Origin: Candidatus Eiseniibacteriota bacterium | GTDB lineage: Bacteria; Eisenbacteria; RBG-16-71-46 | Direction of reading: 5' to 3' | Assembly (NCBI GenBank): GCA_016223045.1 | Contig: JACRPT010000097.1 | Span: 1 to 35,912 of the forward strand | DNA: 35,912 nt | In this document: in pieces, positions 281 through 6,872 of the stretch | Position numbering within the stretch: the stretch's first letter is position 1 | Layout of the letters: each line of letters begins with the position of its first letter | The notes under the pieces: model-generated | The model's database searches: none | What the model saw: only the letters and a program-made list of their open reading frames with translations | Told to the model about the DNA's origin: nothing | Made by a program: the position numbers and the translations under genes

Positions 281-1390
281 ATGCGCAGTGAAGCCCCGGG
301 CCGCACGGTGGAACCGGAGGCGCCGCCCCGGCCGTTCTCCTGGCCCATCCAGGTGCTCGATGCGCTCGAGCAGGGGGTGGTCGCGCTCGACCGCGAGCGG
401 CGCGTCACCTACAACAACCGCCGCATCGAGGAGCTGCTCGGCGTCGAGCCGGGTGCGCTGCTGGGCCTGCCCGGGGGGAGGGTGTTTCCGGGCGCCGATG
501 CCCGCTGGCTGAAGGGCGCCTCGCGCGAGCCGCGGGACTTCCGGCTGGAGGCCGAGGGCCGGCAGGTCACGCTCAAGGCCGAGTCCCTGCCGCTGCGCGA
601 CGACGACGGCGACCTGGCGGGCTCGGTCGTGCTGGCCGAGGCGATCTCCGAGACCGAAGAGGGCGAGTTCCAGAAGAAGATCGACCGCCTGGTTTCGCTG
701 GGCGAGCTGTCGGCCTACGTGGCCCACGAGATCCGCAACCCGCTGACCGGGATCCGCACCACGGTCCAGTTCGTCGGCTCCAAGCTCAAGCCCAACGATG
801 CCCGGCGGGAAGACCTCGAGGACGTCATCAAGGAGCTCGACCGCATCGAGCAGATCATCACCGGGCTGCTGATGTTCGCCCGCCCGCCCGCCGCGCGGCC
901 GCAGCCCTGCGACGTAGGCCAGGTGCTGGACAAGACCCTGGACATGCTCGAGCTCCAGCTCGGGGACGCCCGGGTCAAGCTGTTCAAGGAGTACGCCGAG
1001 CTCGAGGACGAGATCCCGCAGGTCTACGCGGACCCCGACCTGACCCAGCAGGTGTTCCTGAACCTGTGCCTGAACGCCGTGCAGGCCATGCCGGAGGGAG
1101 GCGAACTGCACGTCGCGGTGGGCGTGCGGCGTTACCGCACGCGGCGCTCGGTGGTGGACGTGTCGTTCGGTGACACCGGGGTGGGGATCCCCAGGGACCT
1201 GATGGAGAAGATCTTCGACCCGTTCTTCACCACGCGTTCCATGGGGACCGGGCTCGGCCTTCCCATCTCGGTCCAGATCATGCGCGAGGCGGGAGGCGTC
1301 ATCACGGCGAAGAACAACCCGGGTGGCGGCGCCACGCTGCGGGTTTCCTTCCCGATCCCGGCCGAGCCGCCCGGCCGGCCCGAGGAGTAG
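281..1390 (+). CDS. cytosolic PAS-domain sensor histidine kinase (NtrB/AtoS-like)
   Basis: PAS-like N-terminus, H-box VAHEIRNPLTGIR, N-box FLNLCLNAVQAMPEGG, G-boxes GDTGVGIP and GTGLGLPI; ATG at 281 preceded by GGAGGG (ORF track opens earlier at 155). Confidence 0.9.
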   Translation: MRSEAPGRTVEPEAPPRPFSWPIQVLDALEQGVVALDRERRVTYNNRRIEELLGVEPGALLGLPGGRVFPGADARWLKGASREPRDFRLEAEGRQVTLKAESLPLRDDDGDLAGSVVLAEAISETEEGEFQKKIDRLVSLGELSAYVAHEIRNPLTGIRTTVQFVGSKLKPNDARREDLEDVIKELDRIEQIITGLLMFARPPAARPQPCDVGQVLDKTLDMLELQLGDARVKLFKEYAELEDEIPQVYADPDLTQQVFLNLCLNAVQAMPEGGELHVAVGVRRYRTRRSVVDVSFGDTGVGIPRDLMEKIFDPFFTTRSMGTGLGLPISVQIMREAGGVITAKNNPGGGATLRVSFPIPAEPPGRPEE

Positions 1391-1393
1391 CGC

Positions 1394-2767
<1,374 letters not shown>

Positions 2768-2979
2768 CACCCACAAGGAAGTGGACACCGATCCGGAATC
2801 TCCGTTCCGACAATCGCTTGTGCTCCTCGTGCCGCGTAATCCACCACGAATTTGACACTTACGGCGGTTCCTCACAGCCTTCTCCACAACCGCCGCGCCG
2901 GCTCGACCCCTTGAGCCGATTTTTCATCTCTTTCACTCACAACTGATTGCACCGTTCTGCCGTCACCAGTTCCGAGGTG

Positions 2980-2995
2980 TGGCACGCACCCTGCT
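2980..2995 (+). promoter_or_regulatory. sigma-54 (-24/-12) promoter match TGGCACG-cacc-CTGCT
   Basis: GG and GC elements separated by exactly 10 nt; 7/7 match to TGGCACG in the -24 element, one mismatch (C for T) in TTGCW. Confidence 0.6.
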
Positions 2996-3137
2996 TGGGT
3001 CACACGCGAGGCCACGTGGGGAGCTCGGGAGCTCCGCGTCGGGCCGAAGCGGCCGTGCCGTACGCGGCCAACACCAGTGTCCCAGCGACGAGTTGGGGAC
3101 TCTCCGAATCGGATCAAGACCGAGGAGGTGATTCGGA

Positions 3138-3206
3138 ATGGCGAAGAAGAAGGCTGCGAAGAAGAAGGCCACGAAGAAGAAGGGCGCTGCCAAGAAGAAG
3201 AAGTAA
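3138..3206 (+). CDS. 22-aa lysine/alanine-rich micro-protein MAKKKAAKKKATKKKGAAKKKK (H1 tail-like)
   Basis: Direct translation of ATG...TAA; GAGGAGG Shine-Dalgarno-like sequence at 3122-3128; all Lys codons are AAG. Confidence 0.65.
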   Translation: MAKKKAAKKKATKKKGAAKKKK

Positions 3207-3234
3207 GCAGGTCTCAGGACCTGGCACGTCCTCT

Positions 3235-3270
3235 GGGGATTGGTCGGCGCTCGAATGCCGACCAATCCCC
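3235..3270 (+). terminator. perfect 14-bp inverted repeat (hairpin) between micro-ORF and speD
   Basis: GGGGATTGGTCGGC-gctcgaat-GCCGACCAATCCCC; no downstream T-run. Confidence 0.6.
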
Positions 3271-3313
3271 GATTGCTGAACCCACCACGCATCGCGAGAA
3301 GGACCAACTGCCC

Positions 3314-3886
3314 ATGCGCGCTCCGGCTGGCGCCTCCACGAAACCCTCGAGCTTGTGGAAGGACCCCTGGCCCGGCAGTGGAGCGCTCTCCCGGCCGGCG
3401 TTGCCGGCCGCGGCTGCGCCCGTCGGAAGGATCTGTGAGGTGGGCTTCGGGCCGCACCTGGTCTTCGACGGCTACGGCTGCCCGGCGCGCCGCCTGGGCG
3501 ACCTGGGCCGGCTCTACGCCCTGCTCGACCGACTCCCCGACCAGATCAAGATGACCAAGATCATGCCGCCCTACGTGTTCCGACATGGTTCTCCGGACGG
3601 CGTGGCGGGGGGGCTGTCGGGCTTCGTGCTCATCGCGGAGAGCCATATCAGCATCCACACGTTCCCTGGCCGGCACTTCGTCAACGTCGACGTGTTCTCG
3701 TGCGAGAACTTCGACGTGGAGGCCGTGCTCGCCGCGCTCAAGCGCGCATTCGCGCCGCGGCGCGTCGAATGGAAGCTGCTCGACCGCGGCCGCGAGTTCC
3801 CCAAGAACATCGGCCCGTCTCGGACCGCGGTGCTGCAGGACCGTGTCGCGCTGGTGCGCGAGATGGGGCTGGAGGTTTCGCGCTAG
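3314..3886 (+). CDS. speD: S-adenosylmethionine decarboxylase proenzyme
   Basis: GFGPHLVFDGYGC and IAESHISIHTFPGRHFVNVDVFSC, with the Glu-Ser processing site of prokaryotic AdoMetDC; GAAGGA ahead of ATG 3314. Confidence 0.9.
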   Translation: MRAPAGASTKPSSLWKDPWPGSGALSRPALPAAAAPVGRICEVGFGPHLVFDGYGCPARRLGDLGRLYALLDRLPDQIKMTKIMPPYVFRHGSPDGVAGGLSGFVLIAESHISIHTFPGRHFVNVDVFSCENFDVEAVLAALKRAFAPRRVEWKLLDRGREFPKNIGPSRTAVLQDRVALVREMGLEVSR

Positions 3887-3917
3887 GGCTGGCCGTCTTC
3901 CTCCAGTTATCCAGCGG

Positions 3918-3943
3918 CGGCCCGTCCACGGAAGGACGGGCCG
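3918..3943 (+). terminator. hairpin downstream of speD
   Basis: CGGCCCGTCC-acggaa-GGACGGGCCG, 10-bp perfect stem. Confidence 0.5.
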
Positions 3944-3973
3944 TCCGCGCCCCGGCCGCCCCACCGTCCTCCG

Positions 3974-3982
3974 TGCTATAGT
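3974..3982 (+). promoter_or_regulatory. extended -10 element TGCTATAGT upstream of uvrA-like gene
   Basis: TG-C-TATAGT (5/6 to TATAAT) ~70 bp before the TTG start; no clear -35. Confidence 0.4.
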
Positions 3983-4052
3983 CCGGCGCTCACCGACCGC
4001 ACCGCGCCCGGCCCGGGCGCGGCGGCCCGCGATCCCTGCGCCCGAGGCACCG

Positions 4053-6872
<2,820 letters not shown>

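Follow-up and report, generated by a model that had tools for sequence, protein, structure and literature searches.

A conserved lysine-repeat micro-ORF behind a putative sigma-54 promoter in Candidatus Eisenbacteria, probably the smallest form of an H1-tail-like family

What is encoded between the gene for an NtrC-type activator and speD in Candidatus Eisenbacteria, and is it a gene at all? The window, a stretch of 35,912 nucleotides that represents one contig of a 3.88-Mb genome of this group, contains at this site a lysine-rich reading frame of only 22 codons. An earlier note, made from the DNA letters alone, had described this frame as part of a sigma-54-dependent micro-operon with speD and had offered two functions, either a tiny H1-tail-like nucleoid protein under stress- or nitrogen-type control, or a polycationic leader peptide attenuating speD. 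The micro-ORF is best explained as a real gene with its own transcription unit, and its product as a sigma-54-switched, H1-like polycation stripped to lysine repeats that would bind nucleic acid or another polyanion, a reading to which we assign a probability of about 0.7 as a whole. The features described in the earlier note were confirmed with small corrections, and its interpretation holds in part. The features of the locus are compiled in Table 1.

Table 1. Features of the micro-ORF locus, with positions in the window and the basis of each assignment
Feature	Position	Strand	Basis
Sensor histidine kinase (PAS, HisKA, HATPase_c)	281..1390	+	Pfam; H-box HEIRNPL; syntenic in relatives
NtrC/AtoC-type sigma-54 activator (receiver, AAA+ with GAFTDA, Fis-type HTH)	1394..2767	+	Pfam, NCBIfam, motif
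Putative activator site 1, TGACAC-N11-TGGACA	2765..2787	+	Starts at the NtrC stop codon; binding predicted
Putative activator half-site 2, TTGACACTTA	2852..2861	+	Recurs in many f1 genomes; binding predicted
Sigma-54 -24/-12 promoter element TGGCACGCACCCTGC	2980..2994	+	Motif search and conserved place
Shine-Dalgarno region CCGAGGAGGTGATTCGGA, including AGGAGGTGAT, complementary to the 3' end of 16S rRNA	3120..3137	+	Anti-SD match
Micro-ORF, 22 aa, MAKKKAAKKKATKKKGAAKKKK	3138..3206	+	In-frame conservation, 32 genomes
Conserved 3' motif GGACCTGGCACGTCCT	3217..3232	+	Identical in 19 of 20 f1 genomes
Terminator-like hairpin, 14 bp, without T-run here	3235..3270	+	Many relatives have a T-run behind the corresponding hairpin
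speD, probably beginning at GTG 3440; an optional neighbor outside the unit	3440..3886	+	Homology, Pfam

The micro-ORF starts with ATG at 3138 and ends with TAA at 3204-3206, and 13 of the 22 residues of MAKKKAAKKKATKKKGAAKKKK are Lys, not 14 as counted in the earlier note. The strong ribosome-binding site claimed for it is present as AGGAGGTGAT, a 10-nt perfect match to the anti-Shine-Dalgarno (anti-SD) sequence, and matches of 9 to 13 nt were found in every genome of family f1 that was scored. Conservation in relatives, proposed as a check, was assessed in a search set of 47 genomes for the phylum (a search of the class gave the same set) with a pattern of a strong SD followed by MxxKKKxxKK. 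There was exactly one match in each of 29 of the 47 Eisenbacteria genomes and, for the reversed pattern used as the control, 0 matches across all 47; RNA-model matches revealed three more copies, which differ in start or spacing. Short forms of 11 to 25 aa with KKKxx repeats are present in 32 of these genomes, in single copy and in frame, including all 20 genomes of f1, and they differ in length mostly by whole KKKxx units, with 2 to 4 repeats per micro-ORF. The substitution rates in f1 were 0.042, 0.104, and 0.159 at codon positions 1, 2, and 3, respectively, so that the third position varied most.

Outside the phylum, the pattern matched in 9 of 338 genomes. Those matches that were inspected were mostly similar micro-ORFs of 12 to 50 aa, and none of the eight that were located had a neighbor strongly matching the kinase, the activator, or uvrA from this locus. 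Two genomes of other phyla (G117 and G258, at L142:1510 and L143:1510) contain an ORF of 39 to 41 aa with KKK repeats, directly followed by an ORF of 98 to 118 aa with a basic H1-like tail. A search of open-access papers gave no report of Eisenbacteria micro-proteins.

The near-consensus -24/-12 element reported earlier is indeed located at 2980-2994, where TGGCACGCACCCTGC is the sole exact TGGCACG-N5-TGC in the window and agrees with TGGCAC-N5-TGC, including the GG/GC spacing. Such a motif by itself proves nothing, because exact TGGCAYG-N5-TGC sites were no rarer in the genome (29) than sites of the reversed control (39). The significance of the box comes instead from its place, which is conserved in 36 genomes. 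When all positions from the NtrC stop codon to the ORF were scored in 36 regions, with dinucleotide shuffles as the null, the -24/-12 site was the top-scoring position in all 36, and the shuffles equaled its score in less than 2% of cases for 33 of them. The distance from the box to the ORF is 104 to 165 nt in f1 and about 460 to 500 nt in other families, where the box lies just upstream of a receiver-only gene. One genome, G034, is without a clear sigma-54 box, which counts against the best explanation. Transcription would be expected to start at about 3005. Upstream of the box, conserved TKGACA half-sites look like binding sites of the activator: a dyad TGACAC-N9/11-TGGACA that begins at the stop codon of the NtrC gene and is nearly the same in most f1 genomes, and a TWGACRSTTA-like site (TTGACASTTA) at +84 to +92 from this stop codon in many of them. 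Other families have related dyads such as TGTCCACAAAGTGGACA.

Across the families, the order of genes at this slot is kinase, NtrC, (receiver), basic ORF, (speD), and uvrA, with the receiver-only gene present in the other families and absent there in f1. The sequences themselves show the ORF, its promoter, and the synteny to be conserved, and the slot to be equivalent. In 28 of the 32 micro-ORF genomes, the unit immediately follows an NtrC-type gene. Of the four others, two lie at contig edges; the absence of an adjacent NtrC gene in G026 and G035 counts against the best explanation. The activator directly upstream (1394-2767) and the presence of rpoN in the same window had both been described correctly: rpoN starts inside the window with a Sigma54_AID domain from about 35182 (Pfam), so that an RpoN N-terminal domain and an adjacent enhancer-binding activator gene, as required for a sigma-54 unit, are both at hand. 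The kinase and the activator scored best against the AtoS/AtoC models of NCBIfam; for the best matches listed, none of the scores reached its curated cut-off. Of the control proposed earlier, the sigma-54/NtrC type is in agreement with the conserved box and the conserved adjacent NtrC gene, but these scores do not point to nitrogen control. In the activator, GAFTDA takes the place of the usual GAFTGA, another point against the best explanation. The pair has the same protein architecture as AtoS/AtoC, ZraS/ZraR, and NtrB/NtrC, which act with sigma-54 promoters, and resembles these systems also in the promoter right after the activator gene. It differs from them in its scores, which are under the curated subfamily cut-offs shown, and in its apparent target, a basic micro-protein plus, in most families, a receiver-only protein.

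The nature of the product is suggested by what occupies the same slot elsewhere. In families f4, f6, f8 (G032), f9, f10, and f11, it contains genes for proteins of 37 to 138 aa that consist nearly entirely of repeats of K, R, A, T, and V, and the same kinase, NtrC, and receiver genes immediately precede every one of these genes. A long, repeat-rich form from G034 matched the Pfam family HC2 with an E value of 4.9e-5 and 23.9 bits, compared to a cut-off of 40, and the NCBIfam Burkholderia H1-like model with 0.0019, also below the cut-off. The micro-peptide itself matched no Pfam family and did not reach the gathering cut-off of Hc2 (PF07382), and no convincing second H1-like protein came up when this genome was searched for one. 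The H1 likeness is one of composition and position, with no family threshold passed. This counts against the best explanation, as does the fact that likeness between low-complexity sequences can arise by convergence.

The closest known system is the chlamydial histone H1-like Hc2 (PF07382), together with BpH1 of Bordetella. Hc2 binds DNA and varies in size through lysine-rich pentamers (PMC2848022). Lysine-rich pentamers and a change in size by repeat units were also found here, with more repeats in the other families. Hc2 measures 165 to 237 aa, compared to 11 to 25 aa for the short forms and up to 138 aa in other families, and in the literature consulted neither the linkage to sigma-54/NtrC nor the 3' motif is a feature of Hc2. 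AlgP of Pseudomonas aeruginosa is of a similar kind, with a DNA-binding, H1-tail-like repeat region and links to polyphosphate and starvation, and its tail can influence where polyphosphate granules are located (PMC9239181). AlgP comprises 154 aa of KPAA repeats and a separate N-terminal helical domain, which is without a counterpart here. An H1-like role is preferred for the micro-peptide mainly because longer H1-like proteins fill the same slot in most other families, along with the parallels to Hc2 and AlgP. The idea of a tiny H1-tail-like protein also fits the conserved ORF, start site, box, and NtrC gene, and the micro-ORF is best read as the smallest form of an H1-tail-like family positioned at the same spot across the phylum.

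The alternative function given in the earlier note, now taken as attenuation of speD by a lysine-rich leader peptide with polyamines or lysine as the signal, has very little probability. A short ORF, a hairpin, and speD do follow each other in this genome, and the downstream gene is a speD (Pfam AdoMet_dc, 2.5e-25), which is also adjacent in six other genomes. Yet this makes only 7 of 32 micro-ORF genomes (G000, G002, G003, G006, G007, G012, and G021); speD was not found in the interval after the micro-ORF in the other 25, uvrA being usually next, so the linkage is not conserved. For this reason, the leader reading was rejected and the analogy to the eukaryotic AMD1 uORF with it. The perfect 14-bp hairpin seen earlier between the micro-ORF and speD is present (arms 3235-3248 and 3257-3270) and recurs in relatives, but the sequence of its arms changes between groups. 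This change, together with the T-run that follows the equivalent hairpin in many relatives, indicates that it is best read as a terminator, and that the unit looks like a separate transcript rather than a leader of speD. Termination is less certain in this genome, where the T-run is missing. Since the arms vary while the 16-nt motif before them stays constant, the sequence comparison argues against a conserved antiterminator. The homology of SpeD begins at VGFGPH, making GTG 3440 (VGFGPHLVFDGYG) a likelier start than the ATG at 3314 assumed before, which would probably put the beginning of speD about 230 nt beyond the micro-ORF stop codon and about 170 nt beyond the hairpin. To speak of a "micro-operon" with speD was, in consequence, wrong, and the closeness of the micro-ORF to speD is incidental. 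Least probable of all is that the AAG repeats are an untranslated accident of low complexity. The sequence is rich in repeats, and in one genome the frame is down to 11 codons, the shortest form. Against this stand the in-frame conservation with a strong SD in 32 genomes, the varied codons for Ala, Thr, and Gly with some AAA for Lys, and the longer basic ORFs in the same slot.

An alternative with more weight, albeit still unlikely, is that the locus serves mainly to make a regulatory RNA, dependent on sigma-54, that pairs with target mRNAs or binds a protein through its 16-nt motif, with the micro-ORF being secondary. In dual-function small RNAs such as SgrS/SgrT, a small ORF, a conserved noncoding segment, and a terminator are part of one short transcript. 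Here, too, a predicted short transcript with its own terminator contains a small ORF and a conserved segment; the parallel does not extend to a target or a demonstrated pairing. No other part of the region is as conserved as the motif GGACCTGGCACGTCCT (3217-3232), which the earlier note had missed. It is unchanged in 19 of the 20 f1 genomes and more conserved than the peptide-coding sequence, and it recurs as GGATTGGGCACGTCCT in f5, as GGATTGGCCACGTCCT in f3, and in weaker versions in f2 and f8, always 0 to 2 nt before the hairpin. Its distance from the stop codon varies out of frame, which makes it noncoding. A pure protein-coding role leaves this near-invariant motif unexplained, and this counts against the best explanation. 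On the other side, the motif is weak or absent in the families that retain the gene with a long ORF, no target emerged, and motif-like sequences were not clearly enriched across genomes. Pairing of the motif with its own SD (7 of 8 bases complementary, the folding being unreliable) was equaled by permuted motifs in 8% of cases, was inconsistent across genomes, and was discarded. Likewise, a GGAC/GTCC hairpin inside the motif was unsupported across f2 and f8, and a single RNA model for the 3' end mixed the invariant motif with the group-variable, terminator-type hairpin. A search of positions 2700-4100 against Rfam returned only a chance hairpin match, mir-497, with an E value of 0.56. By eye, the f5 version of the motif resembles the 16S 3' end in about 11 of 16 bases. 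The most far-reaching proposal is doubtful to a similar extent: throughout the phylum, the NtrC/sigma-54 switch would control one transcript of about 265 nt that yields a nucleoid peptide, an H1-like chromatin polycation cut to lysine repeats, and that also works as a regulatory RNA through a trans-acting 16-nt 3' element.

For the polycation reading, a sequence of events can be proposed. A signal would probably act on the sensor kinase (281-1390) and the NtrC-type activator (1394-2767), which may bind to the TKGACA-type sites located at and downstream of the stop codon of its gene, and thereby open the sigma-54 promoter at 2980-2994. An RNA of about 265 nt, ending at the 3235-3270 hairpin, should result, and the near-perfect SD would allow strong translation of the 22-residue lysine-repeat peptide with a charge of about +13. 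When the switch is on, the peptide would most likely act by its charge, through the binding and condensation of DNA, RNA, or a different polyanion, for instance polyphosphate. Here we infer the activation by this particular NtrC-type protein, the abundance of the peptide, its binding, and its cellular role. What is new is the way in which these features come together, in an H1-like gene that is linked to sigma-54/NtrC throughout the phylum and has been reduced to a lysine micro-ORF; the 16-nt element is new as well. Annotation usually skips genes so short, yet here one has been kept throughout a phylum together with a promoter and an activator of its own. If the reading is true, a two-component/sigma-54 signal would be linked directly to a chromatin-like neutralization of charge, and the natural size series from 11 to 138 aa would address how short a working H1-like tail can be.

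A second conserved structured RNA of about 88 nt was noticed at 3863-3951, between the micro-ORF, or speD, the 3' end of which it overlaps, and uvrA. It had no Rfam match and was present in none of the other families. Within f1, it was found in 18 of 20 genomes, with and without speD, in one copy each except for a weak second match in G005. Seven of its 17 pairs exhibit two-sided changes, and it contains the hairpin loop CANGGANG and a conserved GCGCTAGGGCTGGCCGTC.
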